In this document: one piece after another, positions 782 through 27,439 of the stretch
Numbering within the stretch: position 1 is the first letter of the stretch
Layout of the letters: the number at the start of each line of letters is the position of its first letter
Assembly: GCA_017161705.1 (NCBI GenBank)
Contig: JADFCW010000036.1
Coordinates: forward strand, 1 to 32,775
Direction of reading: 5' to 3'
DNA: 32,775 bases
Origin: Candidatus Sumerlaeota bacterium
GTDB lineage: Bacteria > Sumerlaeota > Sumerlaeia > JADFCW01
The notes under the pieces: generated by a model
What the model saw: only the letters and a program-made list of their open reading frames with translations
What the model was told of the DNA's origin: nothing
The model's database searches: none
Made by a program: the position numbers and the translations under genes

Positions 782-892
782 AAGAAATCCGCTACAGCCT
801 CAGGATGATCGTCCAGCAATAATCTGCCCCAACTCTTTCGATTTCCCCGGGATTCTGCGTTTCTCGTTCCGCACTCTGTGTTGTTGGTTCCC

Positions 893-2227: not shown

Positions 2228-2505
2228 TTGAAACACCCCGCCCCCTTCCTCCCATGCCTTTTTCAAAGGCAAGAAAGAAAACGGAAGTTTTTTGCGGCCC
2301 CTTCGCCATTCAAACAAAGGAACAATAGCCAGTGCCCAATTTACAAAACAAGTGAAAAATGCATTTGGATACACTCGCGATGTCCGACGATAAGCGACAA
2401 TTTCCCGTTGACGGACACCGCGGAGCAACGGTAACCAATAAACCGCATTCCTGCGGTGCGAATTTTTCCACCGGCAAACCAAATCCATCATCGAGGTGAA
2501 CAACT

Positions 2506-3264
2506 ATGGCGACCCGAACAAGCAGTCTTATCCGGCAATTGTGTTTTGCAGGATTGATTCTGGCTCTCATCGCCCCGTATGCGGCAGCGGGCGAGGCCAA
2601 GACGGCCAGGAAAGGCAAAGGCGGCGGCAAAAAAGGCGCCAAAACCGAAACGCCCGCACCAGCCGCATCCGAGGAAGGCTTTGTCAGCCTGTTCGACGGC
2701 AAGACCCTCGACGGCTGGAAGGTCAACGAAAATCCCGGCTCGTTTGTCGTCGAAAACGGCGCCATCGTGACCAAGAATGGGACACGCTCGCATCTGTTCT
2801 ATGACGGCCCCGTGGCCAATCACGATTTCAAAAACTTTATCCTCCGCATGGACGTCATGACCACAACCGGCGCCAACAGCGGCGTCTTCTTCCACACCCA
2901 GTTCCAGGAAACGGGCTGGCCCGGCATCGGCTACGAATGCCAGGTCAACAGCACCCATAGCGACCCGATTCGCACCGGCAGCATTTATCAGGCCAAAGAC
3001 CTTGTCAACAAAGACGGCTCGGAGCACACCAAGGACGGCAAATGGTTTGCCCTCGAGATTGCCGTGGAAGGCAAAAAAATCACGGTCAAGGTCGACGGCA
3101 AGGTGATCAATGAATACACCGAACCGGACAACGTCGCGCCGCCGAAGAATAGCCCGGGCCGGAAGCTGTCGAGCGGAACATTCGCCCTGCAGGCCCATCC
3201 GCCAATTGCGGGCACGCCCGGCACGGTGATGTTCAAAAATATTCGCGTGAAGGTCTTGCCGTAG
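2506..3264 (+). CDS. Secreted DUF1080 (3-keto-disaccharide hydrolase-type) protein
   Basis: 252 residues. The start is ATG 2506 with GAGGTG about 6 bases upstream. Residues 1-28 form a Sec signal peptide (hydrophobic core CFAGLILALIAPYAAAG), followed by a Lys/Gly/Ala/Pro linker to about residue 57. The rest is a jelly-roll DUF1080 domain (PF06439): FVSLFDGKTLDGWK, NSGVFFHTQ, GYECQVN, WFALEIAVEGKKITVKVDGK and IRVKVL are its recurrent strands. Some DUF1080 proteins cleave 3-keto-glycosides; others are uncharacterised, so the substrate is not determined. The next gene on the same strand is a Tat-exported Gfo/Idh oxidoreductase, the enzyme class that makes 3-keto sugars. A repeat and a hairpin lie between them, so they may not share one transcript. 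Confidence 0.9.
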   Translation: MATRTSSLIRQLCFAGLILALIAPYAAAGEAKTARKGKGGGKKGAKTETPAPAASEEGFVSLFDGKTLDGWKVNENPGSFVVENGAIVTKNGTRSHLFYDGPVANHDFKNFILRMDVMTTTGANSGVFFHTQFQETGWPGIGYECQVNSTHSDPIRTGSIYQAKDLVNKDGSEHTKDGKWFALEIAVEGKKITVKVDGKVINEYTEPDNVAPPKNSPGRKLSSGTFALQAHPPIAGTPGTVMFKNIRVKVLP

Positions 3265-3309
3265 CAAGACAAGAAGGACCGAAAGGGCAGGAAGGACCCA
3301 AAGAACGCC
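3265..3309 (+). repeat. Degenerate 9-bp tandem repeat immediately after the stop codon
   Basis: Five consecutive 9-base units start at the first base after the DUF1080 stop: CAAGACAAG, AAGGACCGA, AAGGGCAGG, AAGGACCCA, AAGAACGCC. Read through in frame they would give a Lys-Asp-Arg-like periodic peptide. The units are purine-rich on the plus strand. No coding role is evident. Confidence 0.6.
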
Positions 3310-3623
3310 AGGGCGAGAAGACCCGGCGAAGGGGAGTGATATCCCATCCATCGGTCTCTTCCGTCCCCGACATAGCCTATGGCCACAACCCAAAAGACCT
3401 TCGCACAATGGCCAGGCCTCAAGCGGGCTTTGGACTGCGGCAGCCATGCTGCCGCTTTTGCGCGGGCAGGTTTCGACGCACCTTCCGCGGCCCATGGTAC
3501 AACCAAGCATAAGATGTTCCATAAAGATGCATGCATTGTAGCTAGCTCCTTTAATGAAAGCATCTAAACTCTTGGCAGTCTTTCATGACGTCAATGCGTC
3601 AACAAGAAATAGATGAAAATACT
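3310..3623. other. Intergenic stretch without a convincing gene
   Basis: 314 bases between the 9-bp repeat and the heptamer hairpin. The only reading frames are short and lack family signatures and ribosome binding sites. Composition becomes AT-richer toward 3600, so a promoter for the Gfo/Idh gene could lie here, but I cannot identify convincing -35 and -10 boxes. Confidence 0.5.
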
Positions 3624-3685
3624 GAGGTTACGAGGTTGCGGTTTTGTTTTTCTCCAATCTCCAACCTCTAACCTCCCGTTTTTTT
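3624..3685 (+). terminator. Hairpin built of 7-bp repeats followed by a T-run
   Basis: GAGGTTA (3624-3630), a bulged C, and GAGGTTG (3632-3638) pair with CAACCTC (3662-3668) and TAACCTC (3669-3675), giving 14 base pairs around a 23-base loop. CCG and seven T (3679-3685) follow, the layout of a Rho-independent terminator on the plus strand. Both arms show a 7-base period. The loop is long for a terminator, and the Gfo/Idh start is only 40 bases further on, so it could instead be a repeat element or 5' leader structure. Confidence 0.5.
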
Positions 3686-3711
3686 CAGAGTAGTTTTTTT
3701 AAATTTCTCCC

Positions 3712-3717
3712 AAGGAG
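3712..3717 (+). promoter_or_regulatory. Shine-Dalgarno deciding the Gfo/Idh start
   Basis: AAGGAG with 7 bases to ATG 3725. This places the start at the Tat signal peptide and rules out the upstream in-frame ATG at 3644, which would lie before the hairpin's right arm and T-run. Confidence 0.8.
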
Positions 3718-3724
3718 ACTGCCC

Positions 3725-5083
3725 ATGAATCGTCGTCTGTTCTTGAAAGCAGCGGCCGCGGCAAGCGCCGCGCTATCGTCGCGCCGCAGTCTGGCCGCAG
3801 AAGCAGCGGCCGGCAAACGCGTCGCTCTCATCGGCTCCGGCTGGTATGGAAAAAGCGCCCTGTTCCGACTGCTTCAGATCGCGCCGGTCGAGGTCGTCGC
3901 CCTTTGCGACGTGGACAAGAAGATGGTGGCCGAGGCCGCCGACATGGTGGCCGAACGTCAGGTGTCCAAGAAAAAGCCCCGAACCTACGGCGATTATCGG
4001 GAAATGCTCAAACAGGAGAAACCCGACATTGTCCATGTGGCCACGCCCGACCACTGGCACGCCTTGTCGATGATCGCTGCGGTCCAGGCCGGCGCCGATG
4101 TGTATGTCGAAAAACCTATCAGCGTGGACATCGTCGAAGGGCAGGCCATGGTCGCCGCGGCCCAAAAATACAACCGCGTCGTGCAGGTCAACATGCAACG
4201 CCGCAGCACACCCCACCTGGTCGAGGCACGCGACCGCGTCATCCGGGAAGGCAAACTCGGCAAGGTCGGTCTGGTCGAGATTTATTGCTACTATCAGATG
4301 CGGGCGCGCGAAAACCCGCCCGATACCGACCCGCCCGAATACCTGGATTATGAAATGTGGACCGGCCCCGCTCCCATGCGCCCCTACAACGCGCTCGTCC
4401 ATCCGCGCCGCTGGCGAGCGTTCATGGAATACGGCAACGGCATCGTCGGCGATATGTGCGTCCACATGCTCGACATGGTGCGCTGGATGCTCAATCTGGG
4501 CTGGCCGAAACGCATTTCCTCCAGTGGCGGCATCTTCCTCGACAAAAAAAGCAAGGCCAACATCTCTGACACCCAGATCGCCACGTTCGAGTATGATGAC
4601 CTCACGATCGTCTGGCAGCACCGCTCGTGGGGCGACCCGCCGGTGCCGGCCGCCCAGAAATTTCCGTGGGGCGCAACCCTCTACGGCGAGAACGGAACGC
4701 TGACGGCCAACGTGATGAACTACGAATTTATCCCGCGCGGCAAGGGCGGCACCCCGCTCAGCGGCAAATGTCTCTATGAATACGACAAATATCCCGAAGA
4801 CGAAACCGAGAAGGACCTCGAACGCCACGTCGCTTCGGCCATCCGCCGCCACTATCAGAACTTCCTCGAAAACATTGCCACGCGCGGCAAGCCCGTCTCG
4901 AACATCGAGGAAGGCTACATTTCGGCGGCGTGCTGCATCCTGGCCAACATGGCTATGCAGCTGGGCCGCACGCTGGCCTTCGATCCGACGAAGGGGAAGA
5001 TCATCGGCGACGACGAGGCGAACCGGTTGCTCGCCCGGCCCTACCGCGCCCCATGGGTGCACCCAACGCCGGACACCGTGTAG
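3725..5083 (+). CDS. Tat-exported Gfo/Idh/MocA family oxidoreductase
   Basis: 452 residues. The N-terminus is a twin-arginine signal (NRRLFLKAAAAASAALSS, matching RRxFLK), so the enzyme is probably exported folded with its nicotinamide cofactor. The Rossmann fold begins with GSGWYG (residues 37-42), continues with EVVALCDVD, TPDHWHA and the family Lys in EKP (Glu129-Lys130-Pro131), then the C-terminal alpha/beta dimer domain. Family members oxidise or reduce sugars and cyclitols with NAD(P); the substrate cannot be read from the sequence. The terminal RPYRAPW segment is shared with the second Gfo/Idh protein of this window (30205-31509, RAPW). It lies downstream of the DUF1080 gene on the same strand, which suggests a shared carbohydrate pathway. 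Confidence 0.93.
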   Translation: MNRRLFLKAAAAASAALSSRRSLAAEAAAGKRVALIGSGWYGKSALFRLLQIAPVEVVALCDVDKKMVAEAADMVAERQVSKKKPRTYGDYREMLKQEKPDIVHVATPDHWHALSMIAAVQAGADVYVEKPISVDIVEGQAMVAAAQKYNRVVQVNMQRRSTPHLVEARDRVIREGKLGKVGLVEIYCYYQMRARENPPDTDPPEYLDYEMWTGPAPMRPYNALVHPRRWRAFMEYGNGIVGDMCVHMLDMVRWMLNLGWPKRISSSGGIFLDKKSKANISDTQIATFEYDDLTIVWQHRSWGDPPVPAAQKFPWGATLYGENGTLTANVMNYEFIPRGKGGTPLSGKCLYEYDKYPEDETEKDLERHVASAIRRHYQNFLENIATRGKPVSNIEEGYISAACCILANMAMQLGRTLAFDPTKGKIIGDDEANRLLARPYRAPWVHPTPDTV

Positions 5084-5154
5084 GCGGCAGCCCTTTCCCA
5101 GGCCGATCGGCAATAGGCGTTGTAGGCGTCGCACGCTGATACCAGGGCGGCGCC
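5083..5154. repeat. Imperfect inverted repeat after the Gfo/Idh stop (REP-like or terminator-like)
   Basis: The left arm 5083-5101 (GGCGGCAGCCCTTTCCCAG) is a partial reverse complement of the right arm 5136-5154 (CTGATACCAGGGCGGCGCC), with the GGCG, GCCCT and CAG blocks matching. The loop contains the palindrome GCCGATCGGC. There is no T-run. It could stabilise or end the transcript, or be a dispersed extragenic palindrome. Confidence 0.4.
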
Positions 5155-5603
5155 AACAACCGAGTGTTTATCCTTGAATCCATGCGGGCGGGGAATTCGA
5201 CATCCGGAACACAGACCACCGGGAAATCCGGCGTCCACGAAATCGCCCTGACAGGCAACAGTCCCGTTGCGGGCGACAACGCCCAGGCCGACTCCGCGTT
5301 CATCCGAAGAATTCCCACCAGTGGATGCCCAGAACGGTCGCGGGTTTCTAACATGGCCTGGGGCCACGACCAAACATTCTCTCCGGTTTTATCCCCCAGT
5401 CCGTGGAAGAATGAAATTGGTAACACTTGAAAAACTCGAGAGAAGCTGTCGGAATACCATTTGCATTGCCGCTTGCGGCGCATGGATCTCTCATTTCGGC
5501 GGGATTTCTTCCCCCTGACTGGTCATCAAAGAAACGACATACGTTTCTCGGCACGCGGCAAGGGTTCTAAGATTTACCGCAACTATCCCAACGGATTTTT
5601 CCC
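5155..5603. other. 449-base intergenic stretch, no gene supported
   Basis: Open frames exist on both strands but none has family resemblance, a ribosome binding site or consistent codon usage. Base composition drops in GC relative to neighbouring genes, especially after 5380. It must hold the promoter for the MBL-fold gene or operon starting at 5604, but I cannot place it. Confidence 0.5.
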
Positions 5604-6227
5604 ATGCCTTTTCTTCACACGCTGGCAGTGGGTCCGCTTGAAACGAATTGCTATCTGTACGGCGACGACAAAACAGGCGAGTGCGCGATCATTGATCCGG
5701 GCGGCGATGGGGAACGGATTGCCGCCGCCATCGGGCGCCACTCGCTCCAGCCGACGCTGATTCTGCTGACGCATGCGCACTTTGACCACACAGGGGCTGT
5801 AGCCGCGTTGAACAAGCGCTATGGGGCGCGCGTGGGTCTGGGCGAACCCGAGGCGCCGGCTCTGTCGAATGCCCTGCAAAGCGGTGCAACGTGGTTTGGT
5901 TGTCCATTCGAGCCCGCCGCGCCGGATTTTTTCATCGCCGACGGCCAGCGGATTTCCATCGGCGCGGCGGAGTTGACCGCCCTGGCTACACCCGGCCACA
6001 GTGCCGGCGGCTTGAGCTTTCTCGGCGACGGGCTTGTCTTTGTCGGCGACGTTCTGTTTCGCGACGGTATCGGCCGCTACGATCTTCCCGGTGCAGACTT
6101 TGAAACACTGCGCCGGAGCCTCCGGCGTCTCCTTTCGCTTCCCGACGATACCCGTGTTCTGCCCGGCCACGGACCGGCTACGACGATTGGCCGCGAGCGA
6201 AAAACCAATCCCTATCTGGCGGAGTGA
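5604..6227 (+). CDS. MBL-fold metallo-hydrolase (glyoxalase II-like)
   Basis: 207 residues, a full-length compact metallo-beta-lactamase-fold protein. It starts with a typical glyoxalase-II-like N-terminus (VGPLETNCYLYGD, IIDPGGD), then the metal motif HAHFDH (residues 57-62), the third-ligand region TPGHSAGG, the bridging Asp in FVGDVLF and the last His in VLPGHGP. The arrangement predicts a dinuclear zinc or iron centre hydrolysing thioesters such as S-lactoylglutathione or a similar compound; the true substrate is unknown. It is shorter than classical GloB (about 250) and lacks the C-terminal glutathione-binding domain, so it belongs to the broad YcbL-like group. No clear Shine-Dalgarno precedes the ATG. 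queG follows closely. Confidence 0.9.
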   Translation: MPFLHTLAVGPLETNCYLYGDDKTGECAIIDPGGDGERIAAAIGRHSLQPTLILLTHAHFDHTGAVAALNKRYGARVGLGEPEAPALSNALQSGATWFGCPFEPAAPDFFIADGQRISIGAAELTALATPGHSAGGLSFLGDGLVFVGDVLFRDGIGRYDLPGADFETLRRSLRRLLSLPDDTRVLPGHGPATTIGRERKTNPYLAE

Positions 6228-6243
6228 GGTCGGTGAAAAGCCG

Positions 6244-7413
6244 GTGGAGCAGAGGAAACGACACCCCTCCATAGCCTCTTCAAGCGGCGCAAACCCGGCC
6301 GAACCGCCCGCCGCGCCCGTCCATGCCGTGCGGTCTGGCCCTAAATCCACACCCCCGCTGCTAAATCTTTCCGATCTCCAGAGACTCGGACGCGCAGCCG
6401 GCTTTGACTTGACCGGTGCTGCGCCGGCCGAACCGCTTGCCGAATTCGACTACTATTGCGCGTGGCTACAGCGCGGCTTCCATGGCAATATGGACTATCT
6501 GGAACGCAGGGCTGACGCGCGCAGCAACCCGCAGGCGCTTCTGCCGGAGGCCCGGACCGTTGTGGTCTGCGCCCTCAACTACTTGACGGCGCATCCGGCT
6601 GAGAATGTGGGCAGCGAAGAAGAGCAGCACGGACTACCCGATGGTTCCAGGCCTCGTAAGACCGACGACGAGAGGCGTGCCGGCCGCAATCCCCCCTTGG
6701 ATATCCTGAGCCGTGTTTCGCGCTACGCCTGGGGCCTTGATTATCACAAGGTCGTCCGGCGGCGGCTCGAGCGGCTTCACGCCACGATCGAGGCGCGCCT
6801 GCGCCGTCCCGTGCGGGCGCGGCTTTGCGTGGACACCGCTCCGCTGCTCGAACGCGCCCTGGCCGCACGCGCCGGACTGGGCTGGATCGGCAAAAACAAC
6901 TGCCTGATCCATCCACGCTTCGGCTCGTTTCTTTTCCTTGGCGAACTGCTGCTGGATGTCGAGCTGGAGTGCGGCACCCCCATGGCAGAACGCTGCGGAC
7001 GGTGCGAGCGCTGTTTGCGCGCATGCCCGACGCACGCGCTTGCGGCCCCGCGGGATCTCGATGCGCGGCGATGCCTTGCGTATCAAACCATCGAGATCAG
7101 GAACGATCAACCGCCCGAAGTCGGCATCTATCTGTATGGATGCGACATTTGCCAGAATGTCTGTCCGTGGAACATGCGGGCGCAACGCCGCTTTGCCTGC
7201 AATGTGCGCGAGTTTTGGCCCTTGCCCCATCTTGCCGCGGCGCGATGGGAAAACCTCGATTTCCCCGACGAGTCCGCTTTCCGCAACTTTTTCCGCGGCT
7301 CGGTCATTCGCCGCATTGGCCTCGAACGATGGAAAGCCAACCTGTCCAAAGCCGCCGCTGCGCGGCCGCAGAAAAGCCTTGAAACGGAAGGAATTGACAG
7401 GCACTCTTCTTGA
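6244..7413 (+). CDS. queG: Epoxyqueuosine reductase QueG
   Basis: Cobalamin-dependent iron-sulfur enzyme that makes the last step of queuosine in tRNA, reducing epoxyqueuosine. Diagnostic segments are GFDLTGAAP near the N-terminus, the Asp-containing CVDTAPLLER (Asp197 in this numbering), GWIGKNNCLIHP, FLGELLLD, and two 4Fe-4S motifs: CGRCERCLRACPTHAL and GCDICQNVCPWN. The start is uncertain. No ATG lies between the upstream stop and the conserved region, so GTG 6244 (389 residues) or GTG 6328 (361 residues) are the candidates; the family is usually about 360-390. About 25 extra residues rich in Glu, Arg and Asp separate LNYLTAHP from VSRYAWGLDYHK, where most homologues have a short loop. It follows the MBL gene by about 16 bases and precedes coaBC by 21, so an operon is likely. 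Confidence 0.92.
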   Translation: MEQRKRHPSIASSSGANPAEPPAAPVHAVRSGPKSTPPLLNLSDLQRLGRAAGFDLTGAAPAEPLAEFDYYCAWLQRGFHGNMDYLERRADARSNPQALLPEARTVVVCALNYLTAHPAENVGSEEEQHGLPDGSRPRKTDDERRAGRNPPLDILSRVSRYAWGLDYHKVVRRRLERLHATIEARLRRPVRARLCVDTAPLLERALAARAGLGWIGKNNCLIHPRFGSFLFLGELLLDVELECGTPMAERCGRCERCLRACPTHALAAPRDLDARRCLAYQTIEIRNDQPPEVGIYLYGCDICQNVCPWNMRAQRRFACNVREFWPLPHLAAARWENLDFPDESAFRNFFRGSVIRRIGLERWKANLSKAAAARPQKSLETEGIDRHSS

Positions 7414-7434
7414 CGAATTCAGCGGAGGCGGATC

Positions 7435-8667
7435 ATGGCCGCAGAGCCGGAGAACAATCAGACGCTGGCGGGACGCAAAATTGTCCTGGGTATTTCCGGC
7501 GGTATCGCTGCATATAAAGCGGCCGAGCTGGCCCGCCAATTGCGCAAGCGCGGCGCGGATTTGCGCGTGGTGATGACCCGGAACGCCGCGCGCTTTGTCT
7601 CGCCGCTCACCTTTGCCACACTCACGCAAGCCCCGGTTTGTACCTCGCTGTGGAAACCGTCCGACACCTGGTCCATCGAGCATGTCAGCAACGCCCGCTG
7701 GGGCGACTTGCTGCTGGTGGCGCCCGCAACGGCCAACCTGATCGCCAGGTTCGCCCACGGCATCGCCGACGATGCGCTGACGACACTCTACCTGGCATGG
7801 CGCGGACCTGTGGTCGTCGCTCCTGCGATGAACACGGCGATGTTCGAGCACCCGGCGTATCGGGCCAACGAGGCGGCGCTGCGCCAGCGCGGCCATGCCA
7901 TTGTCGGGCCGGAGCCGGGCGAGCTGGCCTGCGGCGAGGAAGGCCCAGGCCGGCTGGCGTCGCTCGAAGCGATCCTAGCCGCGGTTGAATCGGCTTTGTC
8001 GCCCGCCCGCCCCCTCGAAGGCATACGGGTCCTCGTTACGGCCGGACCGACGCGCGAGTTTCTCGATCCGATTCGGTTTCTCTCCAATCCTTCGTCGGGC
8101 AAGATGGGTTTTGCACTGGCCGAACAGGCGGCGCGGATGGGCGCGCAGGTGACGCTGATCGCCGGTCCGGTCGCATTGGTAGCGCCGCCGGGCGTCGAGC
8201 GCGTGGATGTGGTCAGCGCCCAGGAAATGCACGATGCGGTGATGGAGCGGTGCGGGCAGGCAGACATTCTGGTATTCGCCGCGGCGGTCGCAGACTTTGC
8301 CCCGGAGCGCGCCGCCGAGAGCAAGATCAGGAAACGCGAGTGGGCGCGCTCGCTTCAGTTGCGGCGGACGCCGGATATCGCACGGGCATTTGGCGATATC
8401 AAACGGCCGGATCAGGTGAGCGTGGGCTTCGCCGCCGACACGGAGAACGTCATCCCGTCGGCGCGGATGAAGTTGCGCGAAAAGCACTTCGATTTTGTCC
8501 TTGCCAATCCGGTGCGGGGAGAAGAACAAGTGTTTGGTTCGGAGCATAATCGCGGCTGGCTGGTCGGGCCGTCCGGCCGCCCGCGCCCGCTCGACCGCAT
8601 GACCAAGAGTGAAATGGCCAGACAGATATTGCTGCACGCCGTCGAGGTACTGCGGCGTAAACGATAA
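7435..8667 (+). CDS. coaBC: Bifunctional phosphopantothenoylcysteine decarboxylase / phosphopantothenate-cysteine ligase
   Basis: 410 residues, normal length for the fused enzyme of coenzyme A synthesis. It adds cysteine to 4'-phosphopantothenate (C-terminal CoaB half) and decarboxylates the product with FMN (N-terminal CoaC half). CoaC features: GISGGIAAYKAAEL, the active-site His in SIEHVSNARWGD, the PAMNTAMFEHP motif, and the redox Cys in ELACGEEGPGRL. CoaB starts near residue 196 with VLVTAGPTREFLDPIRFLSN and PSSGKMG, then AAAVADF and the KIRK lysine motif. All key residues are present. GGAGG (7424-7428) lies 6 bases before ATG 7435. Its position between queG and a pilus ATPase looks like genomic proximity rather than shared function. 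Confidence 0.97.
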   Translation: MAAEPENNQTLAGRKIVLGISGGIAAYKAAELARQLRKRGADLRVVMTRNAARFVSPLTFATLTQAPVCTSLWKPSDTWSIEHVSNARWGDLLLVAPATANLIARFAHGIADDALTTLYLAWRGPVVVAPAMNTAMFEHPAYRANEAALRQRGHAIVGPEPGELACGEEGPGRLASLEAILAAVESALSPARPLEGIRVLVTAGPTREFLDPIRFLSNPSSGKMGFALAEQAARMGAQVTLIAGPVALVAPPGVERVDVVSAQEMHDAVMERCGQADILVFAAAVADFAPERAAESKIRKREWARSLQLRRTPDIARAFGDIKRPDQVSVGFAADTENVIPSARMKLREKHFDFVLANPVRGEEQVFGSEHNRGWLVGPSGRPRPLDRMTKSEMARQILLHAVEVLRRKR

Positions 8668-8757
8668 GCGCCGGCGCATCCCGTGCCGGCAAGGGTCGCT
8701 CTGCGGCCAAACCGGCCCGGCGGGCGGCAGAGGCATGAGGGAAAGGGGTGTGAGTCC

Positions 8758-9888
8758 ATGTCCAATGATGCAACGACCGATGAACTGGTCAAGATGCTGC
8801 GGGACATCCTGCAAAAAATGGTCAAGCTGAATGCTTCGGACCTGCATCTGAAGGTTGGATCGCATCCGGTGTTCCGCATTCATGGGGCATTGCAGCCCGA
8901 CCCTTCCTATCCCAAAATGACCAGGGAGATGATGACAGCCCTGGTCGAGCGGCTGGTGCCCGGGCCGCTGAAAGAGAACCTCAAGCGCGACGGCGCGGTG
9001 GACTTCGGCTTCAGCCTCGACGCCAACAATCGGTTGCGCACCAACGCCTACCTGCAGCGAAGCAACTACAGCATCGCCCTGCGGCGTCTGGGCTATGAAC
9101 ATCTGGGGTTCGAGCAGCTCCATTTACCCCCGATCATTACGACCATCGCCGAATACAAATACGGTATGATTCTGCTGACCGGCCCGACCGGCTGCGGCAA
9201 ATCCACCACGATGGCCGCGATTCTTAACCATATCAATACCCATAAACAATGCCACATCATCACGATCGAGGACCCCATCGAGTTTATTCACCGCGACATC
9301 AACTGCCTGATTGACCAGCGCGAGATCGGCATTGATACGCGCTCGTTCGAGGTCGGGCTGCGCCACGCCATGCGCGAAGACCCCGACGTAATCCTCGTGG
9401 GCGAAATGCGCGATCAGGAAACCGTCAACATCGCCATTCGCGCGGCCATGACCGGCCACCTGATTCTCAGCACCACCCACACGATCAGCGCTGTCCAGAC
9501 GGTCAATCGCATCCTGAAGTTCTTCCCCGTCGAGACACATCCGGCCATCCGCAGCGACCTCACTCTCGCACTCAAGGCCGTGCTGACCCAGCGGCTGATT
9601 CCGGGAGCCGACGGCCACTCGCGCGTGCCCGCCGTCGAGGTGATGATTGTCAACGAAATGATCCGGAAACTGATCCGCGAAGACCGAATCGAGGACATGA
9701 TCCAGGTCATCCGCAACCGCGTAGATGACATGCAGTCGTTCGATCAGTCGCTGTATGATTTGGTACAGCAAAAGCTGGTGGCCCCCGAAACCGCGATCGA
9801 GTATGCGGAAGACCCTGCGGCCTTCCGGCGCAACCTTCTGGGCGGCTTTGCCGGCACCGACCGGTCGAGCCTGGTAGGGTCGTTTTAG
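8758..9888 (+). CDS. pilT: Type IV pilus retraction ATPase PilT
   Basis: 376 residues from ATG 8758 (GGGG about 9 bases upstream); an in-frame ATG at 8683 would add 25 atypical residues. The N-terminal PAS-like domain shows LNASDLHLKVGSHPVFRIHG. The motor domain has an intact Walker A, GPTGCGKST (Lys148), Asp box ITIEDPIEFIH, Walker B with catalytic Glu (DVILVGEMRDQET) and His box GHLILSTTHT. The C-terminal VMIVNEMIRKLIREDRI corresponds to the PilT-specific AIRNLIRE region, and there is no tetracysteine motif. PilT hexamers power pilus disassembly at the inner membrane, needed for twitching and for pulling in DNA. A UDG gene and a second pilus ATPase follow. A PilB extension ATPase with a full N-terminal domain is not in this window. 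Confidence 0.95.
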   Translation: MSNDATTDELVKMLRDILQKMVKLNASDLHLKVGSHPVFRIHGALQPDPSYPKMTREMMTALVERLVPGPLKENLKRDGAVDFGFSLDANNRLRTNAYLQRSNYSIALRRLGYEHLGFEQLHLPPIITTIAEYKYGMILLTGPTGCGKSTTMAAILNHINTHKQCHIITIEDPIEFIHRDINCLIDQREIGIDTRSFEVGLRHAMREDPDVILVGEMRDQETVNIAIRAAMTGHLILSTTHTISAVQTVNRILKFFPVETHPAIRSDLTLALKAVLTQRLIPGADGHSRVPAVEVMIVNEMIRKLIREDRIEDMIQVIRNRVDDMQSFDQSLYDLVQQKLVAPETAIEYAEDPAAFRRNLLGGFAGTDRSSLVGSF

Positions 9889-10006
9889 GCGAACAATGGA
9901 CGGGCTGGACGTGGTGGACCATGCACGCGAAGGGACGGAGCCGCTGCCGGGAGGCCGGGAATTGGACATTCCACTTGCATCATTTCATTGACAGAGGCCC
10001 CGATTC

Positions 10007-10975
10007 GTGATTGAAAATCGCAAGAAGTGGCAAGAATTGCTTCGCCAGACACGGGCATATTTGGAAGTACTTCGCGACGGCGGCATCGTGTTTGCCGAAG
10101 GGCGATTTGCTAAGAGCACCGCGGGGATTGAACCGCCGGCGGCCGAACGCGTCGAAAGCGCCAAGGCCGGCCGGTCGCGCCCCATGACAGCAGAGGAGCG
10201 AGCTGCGCTGAAAGCTGCATTGACCGACCCCTATGCACGGCTGGTGCCGAGACCGCCTGCCGCGGCCGGTGCGCCCCTAGCGCATCCGGCTGCAACGCCC
10301 ATCAAGCGGAGCCGAGAAACATCTGCACCGGGGCCGCCGGCCAAGCCGGCGAAAGTAACATTGAAAGACCGCACGGAAGGAGCAAAAGTTATTGCTGCGG
10401 CCGAGGACCTGGAGCGCCTGCGGGACCTCATTTCGGGCTGCTATATGTGCGGCCTTTCTGCAGGGCGAACCCATACGGTTCCCGGGGAAGGCAATCCGCG
10501 GGCAGCCTTAATGTTTATCGGTGAAGCGCCGGGATACCATGAGGACGTACAGGGGCGTCCGTTTGTCGGGCGGGCCGGCGAACTGCTCACAAAGATGATC
10601 GAAGCAATGGGTCTGCGCCGCGAGGATGTCTATATCGCCAACATCGTCAAATGCCGGCCGCCGGGCAACCGCGACCCTCTGCCGGAGGAAATGTTGGCGT
10701 GCGAGCCGTATCTCAAGCGCCAAATCGAATTGATCCGTCCGAAAATTATCTGTGCGCTGGGCCGCATAGCGATTCAGGGACTGTTGCGCGAGACCACCCC
10801 GATCAGCCAGTTGCGCGGCCAGTGGCGCACCTACCAGAATATTCCCTTGATGCCGACGTTTCACCCCGCATATCTTTTGCGCAACCCCGGCGGGAAGCGC
10901 TTTGCGTGGGAAGATCTCAAGGCAATCTTGGCCAGGCTGGGCCGGCCGGTTCCGGCAGGTCGCAGCGGACCGTGA
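10007..10975 (+). CDS. Family 4 (4Fe-4S) uracil-DNA glycosylase with N-terminal extension
   Basis: 322 residues from a GTG start with GAGG 9 bases upstream. The catalytic domain occupies about residues 135-318: [20 protein letters not shown] is the family 4 uracil-pocket motif, HPAYLLR is the C-terminal His motif, and four cysteines (145, 148, 216, 232) form the expected iron-sulfur site. The enzyme removes uracil from DNA to start base excision repair. The first 130 residues are an Ala/Pro/Arg-rich extension roughly doubling the usual length of about 200; similar extensions occur in proteins annotated as phage SPO1 DNA polymerase-related. Its place between two pilus ATPase genes is unusual and may link repair to incoming DNA, but this is inference from position. 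Confidence 0.95.
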
Positions 10976-10980
10976 CGCCG

Positions 10981-10986
10981 AAGGAG
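10981..10986 (+). promoter_or_regulatory. Shine-Dalgarno deciding the second pilus ATPase start
   Basis: AAGGAG, 11 bases before ATG 10998. It lies just after the UDG stop and supports 10998 over the in-frame ATG at 10902, which would overlap the UDG gene by 74 bases. Confidence 0.65.
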
Positions 10987-10997
10987 CAGGACAAGTT

Positions 10998-12134
10998 ATG
11001 GAACTGCGAGAGTTGCTCAAGCGGTTAAAGGACCTGGGAGGCTCGGATCTGCATTTGGTGGCAGGACTACCGCCGGCCGTGCGGGTCCACAACGAACTGA
11101 CTATCCTCCGCGACGTCGGGCGCCCCACGCCCGAACAGATGCGCGAGATGATCTATCCCATTCTCGCCAAAGAAGAGATCGAACGGTTCGAAAACGACCC
11201 TCACTTCCGCTACGATCTGGATTTTGCTCGTGGCGTGGCCGATTTGGGCAGGTTCCGTTTCAATCTCCATAAACAGCGCGGGAGCCTCTCCTGCACCATT
11301 CGCGCACTGTCGGGCTCCATCCCGTCGCTGGAGTCATTGGGGCTGCCCCCCGGTGTTCGCGATTTTACCGCCAGCCTGCGGGGACTGGTTCTGGTCACCG
11401 GTCCGGGAGGCAGCGGGCGTTCGACCACACTGGCTTCGCTGGTGGACGAGATCAACCACCAGCGCTCGGCGCGCATCATGACCATCGAGGACCCAATCGA
11501 GTATCAGCTGAAAGGGATCAACCAGGTTCAGGCGCGCCCCGAGATTGAACTGACCTTTGCCAACGCGCTGCGCGCCTTCTTGCGCCAGGACCCCGACATC
11601 ATTCTGGTCGGCGAGATTCGCGACAAGGAGACCGCCGAGATCGCCGTCAAGGCCGCCCTGACCGGCCATCTGGTTCTTTCCACTCTGCACACCAATGACG
11701 CGCCCAGCACGATCAACCGTCTCACCAACATGGGTGTCGAGGCGTTCCTCGTCACCGCTTCGTTGCTGTGCGTGCTGGCCCAGCGCCTCGTCAGACGTAT
11801 TTGCGACCAGTGCAAAGAGGAGTTTCGGCCCTCGCCCGAATTGCTGAAGGCGGTGGGCATTCCGCCCGAGCAAGCGACGACGCTCTTTGCAGGACGCGGG
11901 TGCGAATCCTGCCATGGAACCGGCTATCGGCGCCGCGTCGCGCTCTATGAGTTGATGAAAGTCACCGACCGATTGCGGGACGCGATTATCGAGGGAGCTT
12001 CCGCCACGCAAATCAAGCAACTAGCAATGGCGGAAGGCATGATTACGCTGCGCCAGGCAGGCATTCGGAAGATTCTCCAGGGAATGACCACACCGGAAGA
12101 AGTGATCTCGCAGACTGTGGCTGACGACAGGTAA
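10998..12134 (+). CDS. PilT-sized pilus ATPase with PilB-like C-terminus and Arg in Walker A
   Basis: 378 residues. The N-terminal 115 residues are PilT-like (LLKRLKDLGGSDLHLVAGLPPAVRVHN), with no MshEN/GspE N1 domain. The motor domain is clear: Asp box IMTIEDPIEYQ, Walker B IILVGEIRDKET, His box GHLVLSTLHTNDA and the PilB-style INRLTNMGVEAFL. After it comes a PilB/GspE tetracysteine zinc motif (Cys269, Cys272, Cys302, Cys305, with GTGYRRRVALYELM). Walker A reads GPGGSGRST: the invariant Lys is Arg141 (codon CGT 11418-11420). The protein therefore mixes PilT size with PilB tail, and its ATP turnover may be weak or absent. It may be a regulatory partner of the motor or a dedicated low-activity ATPase. 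pilC starts 26 bases downstream. Confidence 0.9.
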   Translation: MELRELLKRLKDLGGSDLHLVAGLPPAVRVHNELTILRDVGRPTPEQMREMIYPILAKEEIERFENDPHFRYDLDFARGVADLGRFRFNLHKQRGSLSCTIRALSGSIPSLESLGLPPGVRDFTASLRGLVLVTGPGGSGRSTTLASLVDEINHQRSARIMTIEDPIEYQLKGINQVQARPEIELTFANALRAFLRQDPDIILVGEIRDKETAEIAVKAALTGHLVLSTLHTNDAPSTINRLTNMGVEAFLVTASLLCVLAQRLVRRICDQCKEEFRPSPELLKAVGIPPEQATTLFAGRGCESCHGTGYRRRVALYELMKVTDRLRDAIIEGASATQIKQLAMAEGMITLRQAGIRKILQGMTTPEEVISQTVADDR

Positions 12135-12160
12135 CCAAACCGTTTGGGAGGAGGCCGGTT

Positions 12161-13387
12161 ATGCCGTTGTTTCAATATACCGCGCGGAACGTCCAGGGCA
12201 AGGTGGTTTCCGGAGTCACCGAGGCGGTGAACCCAGGAGCGGCGGCTCGTGCACTGCGCGAGCAGGGATTGATTCCCATTTCCATCGGCGCGGGAGCCGG
12301 TCCTGCGGCAGCCGCCAAGAAACGGCGGCCGTATCGAGGAAAAGGCGGCCGCGTGCGGTTGGACGACCTCGTGGTGTTCTCGCGGATGCTGGCGGTGATG
12401 ATTCGGGCGGGTCTGCCGTTGTTGGAAGTGATCAACATTCTGGGCGAGCAGGCGGACAAGCGCGCGCTGCGCAGCGTTCTGGCGCAGGTCGAGCGCAGCG
12501 TCCAGGAAGGCTCGTCCTTCACCGAAGCGCTTCAAAAACACCCGCGCGTGTTCAACCAGTTTTTTATCAGCATGGTGAAAGCCGGCGAGGCCTCCGGTAT
12601 GTTGGACACCATTCTCGATCTCGTGGCCAGCTATCTGGAGAAGACCGCGTCGTTGCAACGCAAGGTCAAGAGCGCCGTAACGTATCCCGCTGTCGTCGGC
12701 ACCGTCGCCCTGCTGATCACCCTGGGGCTGGTCTGGAAAGTGGTGCCGCAGTTCGAAGATATCTTCGCCGACCTCGGCGGCGAGCTGCCTCTCATGACGC
12801 GCATCACGGTTGCGTGCAGCCACTTTATTCAGGAGCGATGGTATCTGCTCTTCATTGGCCTGGCGGTAATAATTGTGGCCTTCTGGCAGTTCAAACGCAC
12901 CTATCATGGGAAACGAGTCGTAGACCGCGCCCGGCTGAAGTTGCCGGTGTTCGGGCCGCTGATGCTGAAGGTGGGCGTGGCGCGGTTCGCCCGCACGTTG
13001 TCGGTGCTCACGCGTGCGGGCGTCAGTATTCTTTCCGCACTCGAAATCGTCGCCAATACCTCCGGCAACAGTCTGATCGAAGACGCAGTGATGCAAACCA
13101 AACAGAGCATACAAGGGGGCGAGACGCTGGCCAAACCGCTGGTGGATTCCGGCATTTTTCCGCCGATGGTTACCCGAATGATTGACGTCGGCGAACGGAC
13201 GGGCGCTCTGGAAAACATGCTCGCCAAAATCGCGGATTTCTACGAAGACCAGGTGGACGCCACCGTGGGCATGCTGATGTCGCTGATCGAGCCCATGCTG
13301 ATCGTGTTCCTAGGCCTGGTGGTCGGCTTCATCGTGATCTCAATGTTCCTGCCGCTGTTCAAAATGCTGGAAATGGTGCAGGGGTAA
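12161..13387 (+). CDS. pilC: Type IV pilus / type II secretion inner-membrane platform protein PilC (GspF family)
   Basis: 408 residues, normal family length. ATG 12161 is preceded by GGGAGGAGG. The N-terminal segment PLFQYTARNVQGKVVSGVTEA and two repeated GspF domains are evident: first DDLVVFSRMLAVMIRAGLPL, later ARFARTLSVLTRAGVSIL. Hydrophobic segments lie at about residues 183-203, 226-243 and 375-400, the last ending in ISMFLPLFKMLE. PilC is the membrane platform that couples the cytoplasmic ATPases to pilin insertion and removal. Its position directly after the hybrid ATPase gene suggests that ATPase acts on this platform. Confidence 0.96.
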   Translation: MPLFQYTARNVQGKVVSGVTEAVNPGAAARALREQGLIPISIGAGAGPAAAAKKRRPYRGKGGRVRLDDLVVFSRMLAVMIRAGLPLLEVINILGEQADKRALRSVLAQVERSVQEGSSFTEALQKHPRVFNQFFISMVKAGEASGMLDTILDLVASYLEKTASLQRKVKSAVTYPAVVGTVALLITLGLVWKVVPQFEDIFADLGGELPLMTRITVACSHFIQERWYLLFIGLAVIIVAFWQFKRTYHGKRVVDRARLKLPVFGPLMLKVGVARFARTLSVLTRAGVSILSALEIVANTSGNSLIEDAVMQTKQSIQGGETLAKPLVDSGIFPPMVTRMIDVGERTGALENMLAKIADFYEDQVDATVGMLMSLIEPMLIVFLGLVVGFIVISMFLPLFKMLEMVQG

Positions 13388-13453: not shown

Positions 13454-14539
13454 ATGATAGATCCTATTCTGGAACGACGGTATTCAGATTGCCGCGAGCT
13501 GCTCAATCTCTGGCGGCGTTTCCACGACTTTTTCAAAATGGGCGTGCAGGGCGAAGGCATCACCCCGGAGAAGGAACATGAGTTCATCACCGTCAAAAGC
13601 CGCATCGCTATGCTGCACGACACCTTCATGAGCGTTCTGGATCACGACCAAAACGTCGGCCAGAACATCCTGACCATCGTCACCCGCTCCATCACCCTCA
13701 AGCACCTGCGCCGCATGAGCACGGCGGAAATCAAGAAAATCGAACTCGAGTGGCACGAATCCTATCTGCTGCTCAACGAGGTAATCGGGCTTCTGGACGA
13801 CAAGCGCAAGCAGTTCGCCACGGTTACCCCCACCCAATACTACCGGCAGGTCTATACAAAAAAGGCCAAGGAAGCCCTGATTCAGTTTTTCACTGGCTGG
13901 GTATTCAAGACCATCGCCATCCTGCTTGCCCTGGTCATCGGCGGCTTTTTCTTCCTCCAATACGGCGGAATGGAGTATCTGCTGCGCACACCCGCCACGC
14001 GGTCCCTGGTGATCAAACTCGAAGATGTCATCCGGCTGGTTTATAGCGAGTATCCTTATCGCGACTTGGTTTCCGTGACGCGAATGGACGCCAACCTGTC
14101 CAAGCAGATCATCGAAGAAGCCAAAGACAATGCTCACAACGAACCGGGAAACGGCCCGGCGGAAGGAATTAAAAAGATCGCACAGAAGATGGCCGGCAGC
14201 CCCGAGGATGTGTCCAAAGACCTTGCCGCCATCGCCAAAGGCCAACCCGGGACGGACTTTCGCACGGATGCCTTCCGCACCAACTTCATGGTGGGTGGCG
14301 CATCGCCGCCCGTCGTCTATATGTATCGCCTGCCCAGCAAAGCGGCGGCCATGGCCATTGAAACAAAATACCGCTCGTGGCGAAGCAAACAGCCGGCGAA
14401 TTACGTCGAAGACTGGCATCTGTTCCGCCGCGCCAATATGATCGGCGTCATCTTTGGGGGCGACGACCGCGGGCAAGCGCGCAGCTACCTGCTGGGCCAA
14501 TATACGCATGTTCGTACGCCTGTGCCCTCGGCCCCGTAG
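13454..14539 (+). CDS. Unrecognised single-pass membrane protein in the pilus cluster
   Basis: 361 residues; no family recognised. The start is ATG 13454 with GAGG close upstream. Residues 1-150 are charged and mostly helical by composition (Lys/Glu/His/Leu-rich), with no signal peptide. One strongly hydrophobic segment follows (151-170, FKTIAILLALVIGGFFFLQY). Residues 171-361 form a second, probably periplasmic, region with a Lys/Ala-rich middle (about 220-265) and a small alpha/beta-looking end containing YMYRLPSKAAAMAIETKYRSW and MIGVIFGGDDRGQARSYL. It lies between pilC and dprA on the same strand, 66 bases after pilC. The layout resembles an assembly or alignment protein, but that is only analogy; it shows no PilM, PilN, PilO or PilP motif. 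Confidence 0.8.
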   Translation: MIDPILERRYSDCRELLNLWRRFHDFFKMGVQGEGITPEKEHEFITVKSRIAMLHDTFMSVLDHDQNVGQNILTIVTRSITLKHLRRMSTAEIKKIELEWHESYLLLNEVIGLLDDKRKQFATVTPTQYYRQVYTKKAKEALIQFFTGWVFKTIAILLALVIGGFFFLQYGGMEYLLRTPATRSLVIKLEDVIRLVYSEYPYRDLVSVTRMDANLSKQIIEEAKDNAHNEPGNGPAEGIKKIAQKMAGSPEDVSKDLAAIAKGQPGTDFRTDAFRTNFMVGGASPPVVYMYRLPSKAAAMAIETKYRSWRSKQPANYVEDWHLFRRANMIGVIFGGDDRGQARSYLLGQYTHVRTPVPSAP

Positions 14540-14658
14540 GCTATCCTGCCGGCTTCGATCCTTTTCCGGCCAGGTTTGTCCTCGCAAAGCAGAATAAGTT
14601 TGCTTGCCAAGTTGGTCTGCTAAGGCTTCTGCCAGTTTCGGCAACAGCAGGGGTTCGG

Positions 14659-14691
14659 CGTGTCCGCCATTGTTTTTCATTGACGGACACG
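14659..14691. repeat. Perfect 8-bp inverted repeat upstream of dprA
   Basis: CGTGTCCG (14659-14666) and CGGACACG (14684-14691) can form a stem with a 17-base T-rich loop that repeats CATTG. No T-run follows, so a terminator is not clearly supported; a protein-binding site or leader hairpin for dprA is possible. Confidence 0.4.
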
Positions 14692-14768
14692 GCCCGCTTC
14701 CCGCATACATTTCCGTCGCACTGGGGGAATGGGGCAACCTCTCCTGATTTGTTTTTTGCGAGTCACAC

Positions 14769-15905
14769 GTGGGCTTGGATTCTTCCGCCGAACTCTGGCT
14801 TCGCCTGCTTCTGGTGCCCGAACTGAAAAAGGTGCACTGGTTCCGCCTCCATCAAGAGTTGGGATCGCCGGAGGCAATTCTTGGCGCCAGTGTCTCCCGC
14901 CTGTGCAAAATCGCTCAGATCAGTTCGGAAATGGCCGAAGCGATCCTACGCGGTCCGGATGCGGAGACCCTCGCGCGCGAAAAAGACGCCGTCGCCCAAA
15001 CCGGCGCTGAACTGATTCCCTTCGACCACCCGCGCTATCCCGAAAACCTCCGGCGGTCGTCCGCCCCCCCGCCGGCGTTCTACATGCTCGGCGACCTCCT
15101 GCCCGACGACAGTCAGGCCCTCGTCGTGGTCGGCAGCAGGCAGATGACGCAATACGGAAAAATGACCTGTCAGAATATCGTCGCCGAACTGGCGGGTGCA
15201 GGGCTGACGATTGTCAGCGGCATGGCTTACGGCATAGATTCCATCGCACACGAGAGCGCCCTGCGCAACGGCGGGCGGACCGTGGCGGTGCTGGCGCAGG
15301 GGCTGGCCGTTCGCGAAACTGCCCAGCGTCAGGACCTGCGCCGCAGAATCATGGCCCAGGGCGCCGTTCTCAGCGAGTTCCCCATGACCGCCACCCCCGA
15401 GCGGTATCATTTCCCTACGCGCAATCACACCATGGCTGCACTCGGTTTGGCCACGGTGGTGATCGAGGCGGGGGAAAAGAGCGGCGCGTTGATTACCGCC
15501 GAGCGCGCACTGGATGAAAACCGCCACGTGTTTGCCGTTCCCGGCGATATTACGCGCGAGATGTCCAGCGGCACCAACAACCTCATTCGCGCGGGAGCGA
15601 CACTCATCCGAAACGGCCGCGACGTGCTCGAAGAACTCAAGGACCAACTGGGAGCGATCCTCCGCGAAACCGCCCCAGCGGGCGCCGAACGTCGCTCTAC
15701 CCCCGCGGAGACCCAGCTCGACCCCACCGCACGCGCCATCCTCGACCGCATTCGTTTCGAGCCGGTTCACTTCGACCTCTTACATGAGCAGCTGGCCGAC
15801 ACCGGCATCGGGTTCGGACCGCTTTCGGCCGCCTTGCTGGATTTGGAAATGAAAGGGCTGATCCGTCATCTGCCCGGAAACCTTTATGTTGCAGGAACGG
15901 GATAA
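14769..15905 (+). CDS. dprA: DNA-processing protein DprA
   Basis: 378 residues from a GTG start. DprA binds single-stranded DNA entering the cell and loads RecA during natural transformation. The extended Rossmann domain shows VVVGSRQMTQYGKM, GAGLTIVSGMAYGIDSIAHE, GGRTVAVLAQGL, GAVLSEFPM, the FPTRN motif, VVIEAGEKSGALITAERALD and VFAVPGDI, ending in SGTNNLIRAGA. A C-terminal winged helix follows (about 315-375, IRFEPVHFDLLHEQL). Where most homologues have RNRIIAGLS, this one has RNHTMAALG, a modest change in a normally conserved block. Its stop overlaps the topA start by one base (TAATG), so translation is coupled. The dprA-topA order is common in bacteria; its place after pilus genes supports a DNA-uptake theme. 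Confidence 0.95.
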   Translation: MGLDSSAELWLRLLLVPELKKVHWFRLHQELGSPEAILGASVSRLCKIAQISSEMAEAILRGPDAETLAREKDAVAQTGAELIPFDHPRYPENLRRSSAPPPAFYMLGDLLPDDSQALVVVGSRQMTQYGKMTCQNIVAELAGAGLTIVSGMAYGIDSIAHESALRNGGRTVAVLAQGLAVRETAQRQDLRRRIMAQGAVLSEFPMTATPERYHFPTRNHTMAALGLATVVIEAGEKSGALITAERALDENRHVFAVPGDITREMSSGTNNLIRAGATLIRNGRDVLEELKDQLGAILRETAPAGAERRSTPAETQLDPTARAILDRIRFEPVHFDLLHEQLADTGIGFGPLSAALLDLEMKGLIRHLPGNLYVAGTG

Positions 15906-18211
15906 TGAGCAAATCGCTGGTGATTGTGGAGTCGCCCACCAAAGCGCGCACGTTGAGCAAATTCCTGGGCAATAATTTTGTCATCGAGGCCTCGCTGGGC
16001 CACGTCAAAGACCTCCCGACCAACCGCATGGGCGTGGACGTGGACAACGGCTTCCGCCCCGAATATGAAATCCTTCCGGGCAAGAGCCGTTTCCTGGAAA
16101 AACTGCGCAAAGCCGCCCGCGAGTGTGATCGGATCTATCTGGCGCCCGACCCCGACCGCGAAGGCGAGGCGATTGCATGGCATATCGCCGAGGAATTGAA
16201 AGCCACCGACCGGCCGGTGCACCGCGCCGCGTTCGAGGAAATCACGCGCGATGCCGTTCTCCGCGCAATCGAAAAACCAACCAAACTGAACAAGGCTCTT
16301 TATGAAGCCCAGCAGGCGCGCCGCATTCTCGACCGCCTCGTCGGCTATAAGATCAGCCCAATGCTGTGGAAGCGCGTCCAGGCCGGCTTGAGCGCCGGCC
16401 GCGTCCAATCGGTGGCGCTCCGGTTGATCTGCGACCGCGAGGACGAAATCCGTCAGTTTCAGCCCCGCGAGTATTGGACCATAGACCTGCAGGTCGAAGG
16501 GCCGACACCCCCGCCCTTTCCCATGAAACTGGCCACTGTGGACGGCGAGAAATATGAGCCTGCCACCGGCGAGGCGGCCCAGCAAATCGTGGATGCCGTG
16601 CAGGGTCGGCCGTTGATTGTCTCCAAAGTGGAAAAAAAGGAAATCCGCCGGAATCCTCCGCCCCCGTTTATCACCAGCACGCTTCAACAAGATGCCTACC
16701 GCAAGCTGCGCTTCTCCGTGAAAAAAACCATGATGATCGCCCAGCAATTGTACGAGGGTGTGGACTTGGGCGAAAAGGGCGTCCAGGGATTGATCACCTA
16801 CATGCGCACGGACTCCGTACGGCTGTCCAAAGAGGCGGTTGCCCAGGCACGGGACTATATCGCCAGAAAGTTTGGCAAAGATTATCTGCCGGAAAAGCCG
16901 AACGTCTACAAGAGCCGAAAGTCCGCCCAGGAAGCGCACGAAGCGATCCGGCCCACGACCCCCACGCTGACCCCCGAGGAGGTCCGGCCCTTCGTCGAAC
17001 GCGATCAATACATTCTCTATGAGTTGATTTGGAAACGCTTCATGGCCAGCCAGATGGAAGCCGCCCGGTTTCACCAGACCCGCGTCACCGCACTGGTGGA
17101 CAACAAATACGGCTTCACCGCCGCGGGCCTCGAACAGATCTTCCCGGGTTTTCTCGCCCTCTATCAGGTTCCGGCCGAAGACGAGAACGGCAAGGAAGAA
17201 GAAACAAGCGCAAACGCTCTGCCGCCGCTGAAAAAGGGCGATCGCCTCACCGTCCTGTCCATCACACCCAACCAGCATTTCACCGAGCCGCCGCCGCGAT
17301 ACAACCAGAGCTCGCTGGTCCGCGAACTCGAAGCCCAGGGAATCGGACGACCCTCGACCTATGCCTCGATCGTCAGCACCATCCAGGAGAAGAAATACGT
17401 CGAGCAAATCAAAGGGCGGCTCCATCCAACGGAACTGGGCGAAATGATCACGGACCTGCTGGTCGAAAGCTTTCCCGACATCATGGATGTCAAGTTCACC
17501 GCGCTGCTGGAAGAACAACTCGACCGCGTCGAGGAAGGCTCGGCTAACTGGCATGATCTGCTCAAAAACTTCTGGCAGCAGTTCAAAATGCGACTCGAGG
17601 AAGCCGACACCCGTATGCGGAATGTGCGCCGCGAGGTGGTGCCCACCGAGCACAAGTGCGAGAAATGCGGCGCCCACATGGTGCTCCGCTGGGGACGCAA
17701 CGGCCGTTTCCTCGCCTGCTCGGCCTACCCCAAATGCCGCAATGCCAAACCGTATTTGATCGAGAAAGAGCAAGCCGAAACCAATCTCTATCAGCGGCCG
17801 GCCAAAAAGACCGAGTTCAAGTGCGAGAAATGCGGCCGCCCGATGGTCATCAAAACCGGCCGGCGCGGACGTTTTTTGGCATGCGCCGGCTACCCGGAGT
17901 GCCGCAACACCATGCCGCTGAAAATGGGGCTGCCCTGCCCCGAAGAGGGCTGTACGGGCGAACTGGTCGAGCGCATGTCCAAACGTGGCCGGGTGTTTTA
18001 CAGCTGCACGCGCTATCCCGATTGCCGCTATGTGCAATGGGAAAAGCCGGTGAAACACCCGTGCCCGGCGTGCGGGTACTACTTCATGGTGTATATCCGG
18101 CGCGAGGGCAAGCATGTGCTGCGGTGTCCCAAGTGCAAACACACCGAGGACGCCGGCGAACTGATTTCCGGTCGGAAAAACCAGGGGGACGAAGAAACGC
18201 CCCACGAATAA
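15905..18211 (+). CDS. topA: DNA topoisomerase I (type IA)
   Basis: 768 residues. It relaxes negatively supercoiled DNA through a transient single-strand break. The TOPRIM domain starts with VIVESPTKA (Glu9) and contains LAPDPDREGEAIAWH; the catalytic tyrosine is Tyr299 in ITYMRTDS, with the conserved QSSLVRELEAQGIGRPSTYA segment. The C-terminal 190 residues hold four zinc-ribbon units: CEKCGAHM ... YPKC, CEKCGRPM ... YPEC, CPEEGCTGE ... YPDC, and CPACGYYF ... CPKC. All catalytic blocks are intact and the size matches the family. It is translationally coupled to dprA by a one-base overlap. Confidence 0.98.
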   Translation: MSKSLVIVESPTKARTLSKFLGNNFVIEASLGHVKDLPTNRMGVDVDNGFRPEYEILPGKSRFLEKLRKAARECDRIYLAPDPDREGEAIAWHIAEELKATDRPVHRAAFEEITRDAVLRAIEKPTKLNKALYEAQQARRILDRLVGYKISPMLWKRVQAGLSAGRVQSVALRLICDREDEIRQFQPREYWTIDLQVEGPTPPPFPMKLATVDGEKYEPATGEAAQQIVDAVQGRPLIVSKVEKKEIRRNPPPPFITSTLQQDAYRKLRFSVKKTMMIAQQLYEGVDLGEKGVQGLITYMRTDSVRLSKEAVAQARDYIARKFGKDYLPEKPNVYKSRKSAQEAHEAIRPTTPTLTPEEVRPFVERDQYILYELIWKRFMASQMEAARFHQTRVTALVDNKYGFTAAGLEQIFPGFLALYQVPAEDENGKEEETSANALPPLKKGDRLTVLSITPNQHFTEPPPRYNQSSLVRELEAQGIGRPSTYASIVSTIQEKKYVEQIKGRLHPTELGEMITDLLVESFPDIMDVKFTALLEEQLDRVEEGSANWHDLLKNFWQQFKMRLEEADTRMRNVRREVVPTEHKCEKCGAHMVLRWGRNGRFLACSAYPKCRNAKPYLIEKEQAETNLYQRPAKKTEFKCEKCGRPMVIKTGRRGRFLACAGYPECRNTMPLKMGLPCPEEGCTGELVERMSKRGRVFYSCTRYPDCRYVQWEKPVKHPCPACGYYFMVYIRREGKHVLRCPKCKHTEDAGELISGRKNQGDEETPHE

Positions 18212-27197: not shown

Positions 27198-27272
27198 CGC
27201 GGGGTGGAGCAGTGGTAGCTCGTTGGGCTCATAACCCAGAGGTCGTCGGTTCGAATCCGGCCCCCGCAACCA
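27198..27272 (+). tRNA. tRNA-fMet (CAT), initiator
   Basis: 75 bases including encoded CCA. The acceptor stem (CGCGGGG with CCCCGCA) leaves the C1-A72 mismatch that marks initiators. The anticodon arm TTGGG-CTCATAA-CCCAG has the three consecutive G-C pairs that let the tRNA enter the P site. D-stem GAGC/GCTC and T-arm GTCGG-TTCGAAT-CCGGC are complete. Confidence 0.96.
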
Positions 27273-27362: not shown

Positions 27363-27439
27363 GGCGATGTAGCTCAGTTGGTCAGAGCGGCGGATTCATA
27401 ACCCGCAGGTCCTCGGTTCAATTCCGAGCATCGCCACCA
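27363..27439 (+). tRNA. tRNA-Met (CAT), probable elongator
   Basis: 77 bases including CCA. Acceptor GGCGATG/CATCGCC, D-stem GCTC/GAGC, T-arm CTCGG-TTCAATT-CCGAG. The anticodon arm GCGGA-TTCATAA-CCCGC has an A-C mismatch at its last pair next to the loop. It has no initiator features, so it is elongator Met, or less likely tRNA-Ile whose C34 is modified to lysidine. Confidence 0.92.

Follow-up and report, generated by a model that had tools for sequence, protein, structure and literature searches.

We analyzed a 32,775-nucleotide stretch of DNA from a Candidatus Sumerlaeota bacterium, referred to here in its entirety as the window. The source assembly (G000) comprises 4.67 Mb in 395 contigs. 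It contains 18 secretion-ATPase matches above the Pfam cut-off, about six of them of PilB/GspE length and many of PilT type. At 10998-12134 on the plus strand of the window lies an open frame of 378 amino acids that is in phase throughout. It is preceded by coaBC, pilT, and udg and followed by a gene for a PilC-type platform protein, a gene for a membrane protein, dprA, and topA (Table 1). The pilT-udg adjacency is also found in the genomes G003, G004, and G012. The 361-amino-acid protein encoded between pilC and dprA (13454-14539, plus strand) is predicted to be a membrane protein and matches no family in Pfam or NCBIfam; over its first 171 residues it is 52% identical to the protein at the same position in G004, a genome of the same class.

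Table 1. Positions of genes and sequence features around the 378-amino-acid frame
Feature	Position	Strand	Remarks
coaBC	7435..8667	+	TIGR00521, 436.7 bits; left arm, syntenic with the pilT2 locus of G001
canonical pilT	8683..9888	+	TIGR01420, 410.1 bits, above cut-off; GPTGCGKST, DVILVGEMR, GHLILSTTHT
udg (family-4 uracil-DNA glycosylase)	10007..10975	+	TIGR00758, 220.9 bits; between pilT and pilT2
pilT2, 5' part	10998..11483	+	PilT-type N-terminal domain and P-loop, residues 1 to ~162; genuine sequence, cut by the join
Walker A, GPGGSGRST	11400-11426	+	residues 135-143; Arg141 codon 11418-11420; identical in PilT2 of G001
stretch matched by both parents	11475..11503	+	blastn, diagnostic bases
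pilB, 3' part	11492..12134	+	Walker B, His box, tetracysteine motif, and C-terminal domain, residues from ~163; obg-proB-proA-pilB-pilC locus
pilC/gspF-type platform protein, partner of pilB	12161..13387	+	right arm; contiguous with full pilB in G004 and G002
membrane protein of unassigned family, dprA, topA	13454..18211	+	order after pilB-pilC as in G004

Downstream of its Walker A motif, the frame encodes TIEDP, DIILVGEIR, and GHLVLSTLHT, and a tetracysteine motif (CDQC / CESC) lies in its C-terminal part. When its sequence was aligned with those of solved structures, residues 2-245 matched PilT and residues 105-374 matched PilB/PilF. The score against the PilT/PilU family (TIGR01420) was 279.1 bits, below the cut-off of 319.1. 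The score against PilB, the type IV-A pilus assembly ATPase (TIGR02538), was 352.5 bits over residues 128-374 only, below the cut-off of 675.65. The right part of the frame corresponds to the C-terminal region of a typical PilB, and the N-terminal domains of PilB and its own Walker A motif are missing.

Two parent genes and the origin of the frame

We compared the frame with G001, the only further genome found for this genus; all comparisons within the genus rest on G000 and G001. The best match to residues 101-378 was a 611-codon frame on contig C255 (86%). This frame encodes a canonical PilB of 581 amino acids and is preceded by obg, proB, and proA. Residues 1-239 had their best match in a 411-codon frame on contig C202, which encodes a 404-amino-acid PilT paralog that we call PilT2 and lies in the order coaBC-pilT-udg-pilT2-argG. 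The two genes are full-length and sit in different loci of G001, and both products score above their family cut-offs (336.1 bits against TIGR01420 for PilT2, 705 bits against TIGR02538 for PilB). The C-terminal tetracysteine motif is present in the right part of the window frame and in the PilB of G001, and is not found in its PilT2.

The window follows each of these loci in turn. By blastn, positions 7361-11503 are collinear with the pilT2 contig of G001 (locus L051) at 84%, and positions 11475-12204 track the pilB contig; the right part and the 3' end of pilB in G001 are 87% identical as DNA. Among diagnostic bases, 11483 is the last that sides with pilT2 and 11492 the first that sides with pilB, which places the switch at about 11483-11491, within the TIEDP codons. 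Since pilT2 and pilB are homologous and in phase at TIEDP, a join at this point keeps the frame, and it accounts for the absence of the PilB N-terminal domains and Walker A. No exact 12-mers are common to pilT2 and pilB of G001. Further upstream, positions 1-7361 of the window (queG-like and metallo-beta-lactamase-fold genes, upstream of coaBC) have no match on the G001 contig, which reflects either a genuine rearrangement or another misjoin.

The missing half of pilT2, and the gene expected before the missing half of pilB, were located in G000. The remainder of pilT2 opens contig C135 at base 1 and continues in frame to a normal stop, followed by argG as in G001; about 82 bases of the gene between the join and the start of C135 are not covered. 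Contig C160 carries obg-proB-proA, and its last base falls inside proA, just before the expected pilB. Because the same-class genome G004 has the unbroken order obg-proB-proA-pilB-pilC-unknown-dprA-topA, the right arm of the window belongs after C160. A search of the G000 assembly for the 5' part of pilB returned paralogs only, at 66-76%. Thus, the sister species has each parent as a complete gene of its own, and what is missing from G000 lies at or beyond contig ends.

We infer that the join was made in assembly and not in the cell. The misjoin would have occurred at the short conserved stretch formed by the TIEDP codons, where an assembler-level overlap between the two genes of G000 is presumed. 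It is almost certain that the frame at 10998-12134 is no natural gene. We consider it very probable that it is an assembly misjoin of pilT2 and pilB; PilT2 itself is probably an ATP-dead PilT, which would most likely act as a passive partner of PilT or PilC. Contamination of one arm by another organism was considered and rejected. The dS values relative to G001 are 0.695 and 0.704 for the two arms, and this equal distance indicates that both come from one organism.

A true gene fusion, in which pilT2 and pilB recombined in vivo at TIEDP to give a PilT-N/PilB-C hybrid, is improbable. Such a gene would have the open, in-phase frame that is seen along the whole length, and six other PilB/GspE-type genes in G000 could stand in for pilB. 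However, the frame is kept automatically whenever homologous motifs are joined. The 3' part of pilT2, which a fusion would have left over, is no decaying remnant: it is intact and in frame, is still followed by argG, and is under purifying selection (dN/dS 0.057). This part also begins exactly at the end of contig C135, and the proA-pilB side likewise breaks at the end of C160. Finally, we looked for the hybrid gene in 60 other genomes and found it in none (0/60).

These results change how the frame is to be read. The preliminary description had presented it as a PilT/PilB hybrid ATPase, with an arginine Walker A motif, a seemingly intact Walker B and His box, and the PilB tetracysteine motif attached to a PilT-length protein. 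All of these features are present in the frame as printed, but not as parts of a single natural gene: the arginine derives from pilT2 and the rest from pilB, and the two halves are separate genes in G001. The odd contrast between the Walker A motif and the other, intact features (Walker B, His box, and PilB zinc motif) is an artifact of the join. A striking but false hybrid motor can therefore be taken off the list of candidates. The case illustrates that, when an assembly is fragmented, a join within a conserved ATPase motif can yield an in-frame and convincing "new" protein. The genuine lead that is left is an evolved, putatively ATP-dead PilT.

Catalytic motifs of PilT2 and selection on the gene

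PilT2 matches PilT, the type IVa retraction ATPase (TIGR01420; PDB 2gsz, 6ojx, 3jvu), along its full folded length (residues 2-342). It retains the Asp-box TIEDP of that family, and in G001 the acidic residues of this box are kept (TIEDPVE). In contrast, the Walker A lysine, the Walker B glutamate, and both His-box histidines are replaced. Both histidines are replaced by leucine and threonine in G000 and G001. The catalytic glutamate position varies between the two species, with tyrosine in G001 and serine in G000 (contig C135), as would be expected if catalysis had ceased to matter. Among the secretion-ATPase frames surveyed in our collected loci, 150 of 151 scorable PilT-type proteins had the Walker A lysine and 150 of 152 the Walker B glutamate, PilT2 accounting for the exceptions in both cases. 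Because three of the four motif features of active enzymes fail despite its membership in TIGR01420, we call PilT2 a putative pseudo-ATPase variant of the PilT family, neither PilT nor PilU.

The arginine in place of the Walker A lysine, reported in the preliminary description, is genuine and belongs to PilT2, since the intact pilT2 of G001 carries an identical GPGGSGRST. A base-calling error in an ordinary lysine motif has a negligible chance of explaining it, because G001 was assembled independently and differs at many synonymous sites around the motif and because a change from AAR to CGY takes more than one base; sequencing error at Arg141 is ruled out by G001. The expectation that orthologs share Arg141 held inside the genus (G000 and G001) and failed outside it, where the nearest relatives among the matches listed have GPTGSGKST. 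These relatives are 45-53% identical to PilT2, and three are from the same class, one is titled Aminicenantes, and one is titled Verrucomicrobia. They group with PilT2 in one clade (support 0.993), and their motifs are canonical, so the motif losses appear to have arisen on the branch leading to the genus, within the genomes covered. In a tree without PilU, PilT2 clusters with the other PilTs of its class. A widespread family of PilT proteins with an arginine Walker A was not found: the best 80 named-genome matches and those from a scan of the class had canonical residues in Walker A and Walker B, except for G000 and G001.

We noted a separate case of motif loss in Nitrospirota (locus L141, JAOUDF010000007.1). 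A frame starting at about position 5194, near a canonical PilT, encodes a PilB-like protein of ~570 amino acids in which Walker A (VTGTSEKDNAAT), the Walker B glutamate (MVDGL), and the His-box histidine are lost and the tetracysteine motif (CPSC / CEQC) is retained. This protein is a possible PilB pseudo-ATPase.

We examined selection on pilT2 by comparing G000 with G001. The N-terminal part shows 3 amino acid differences in 159 codons and a dN/dS of 0.021. The dN/dS is 0.057 for the C-terminal core and 0.2 for the tail; the pilB part of the window gave a value of 0.033. The gene is under strong purifying selection and is not decaying, and is therefore presumably used. The idea that pilT2 is a decaying pseudogene and encodes no functional pseudo-enzyme draws on the loss of its catalytic motifs, its long branch in the tree (0.75), and its variable C-terminal tail. 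We regard it as highly improbable, because the open frames are full-length and dN/dS is low over both folded parts at a dS of ~0.7.

A possible role for PilT2 in pilus retraction

PilT2 is probably a genus-restricted PilT pseudo-ATPase that exists beside a canonical PilT. Its motifs predict a protein that cannot hydrolyze ATP, and some binding of nucleotide by the arginine P-loop may still be possible. The preliminary description had proposed a non-hydrolyzing subunit. This proposal does not apply to the hybrid frame, but it carries over to PilT2 as a putative property, given the arginine, the loss of the glutamate and histidines, and the purifying selection on the gene.

Work on other retraction ATPases suggests how such a protein might act. 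PilU, a retraction ATPase that depends on PilT (PDB 9n32), resembles PilT2 in being an additional PilT-type protein with its gene near pilT, and it is a possible model for a paralog that works through PilT. In Vibrio cholerae, PilT Walker mutants (K136A, E204A) are inactive, but PilU still retracts pili, and two-hybrid tests show that these mutants continue to bind both PilU and PilC (PMC6762196, PMC6821130). According to a proposal made in a 2026 study of PilU, PilT in its inactive form can take on shapes that stabilize an active partner (PMC13142100). The results with engineered dead PilT suggest a structural role for PilT apart from ATP hydrolysis. PilT2 may be the natural counterpart of the dead PilT that supports PilU-driven retraction in V. 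cholerae. The V. cholerae mutants carry engineered alanine changes, whereas PilT2 is an evolved paralog whose proposed partner is canonical PilT. In Geobacter, the conserved residues are present in all of PilT1-4 (PMC5065972). The part of the literature that we searched, which took in few subscription journals, held no description of a natural ATP-dead PilT or PilT pseudo-ATPase.

By analogy with these proteins, PilT2 might associate with canonical PilT, whether by stacking, mixing, or clamping, or it might hold PilC. It would then act through these partners, one of which, canonical PilT, is encoded two genes upstream, and an ATP-dead ring or subunit would support or tune retraction. We give roughly even chances to the proposal that this dead paralog is retained by the genus as a functional component of the pilus motor, where it would mix with the retraction ring, cap it, or clamp it. 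If true, a natural PilT with a structural role only would allow that role to be tested directly.

An improbable alternative is that PilT2 binds nucleotides and acts as a regulator outside pili, for instance in competence with DprA. The presence of udg among the neighbors of pilT2 and the large number of type IV pilus ATPases in G000 are consistent with this possibility. Membership in the PilT fold family above the cut-off and the proximity of canonical pilT argue instead for a function in pili. The dprA gene belongs to the pilB arm of the window and thus says nothing about pilT2.

Two minor observations concern other genes of G000. A second family-4 uracil-DNA glycosylase gene (G000:C270:712-1257) is 58% identical to the pilT-adjacent one. 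Two closely spaced tRNA genes lie on the plus strand of the window at 27198-27269 and 27363-27436.
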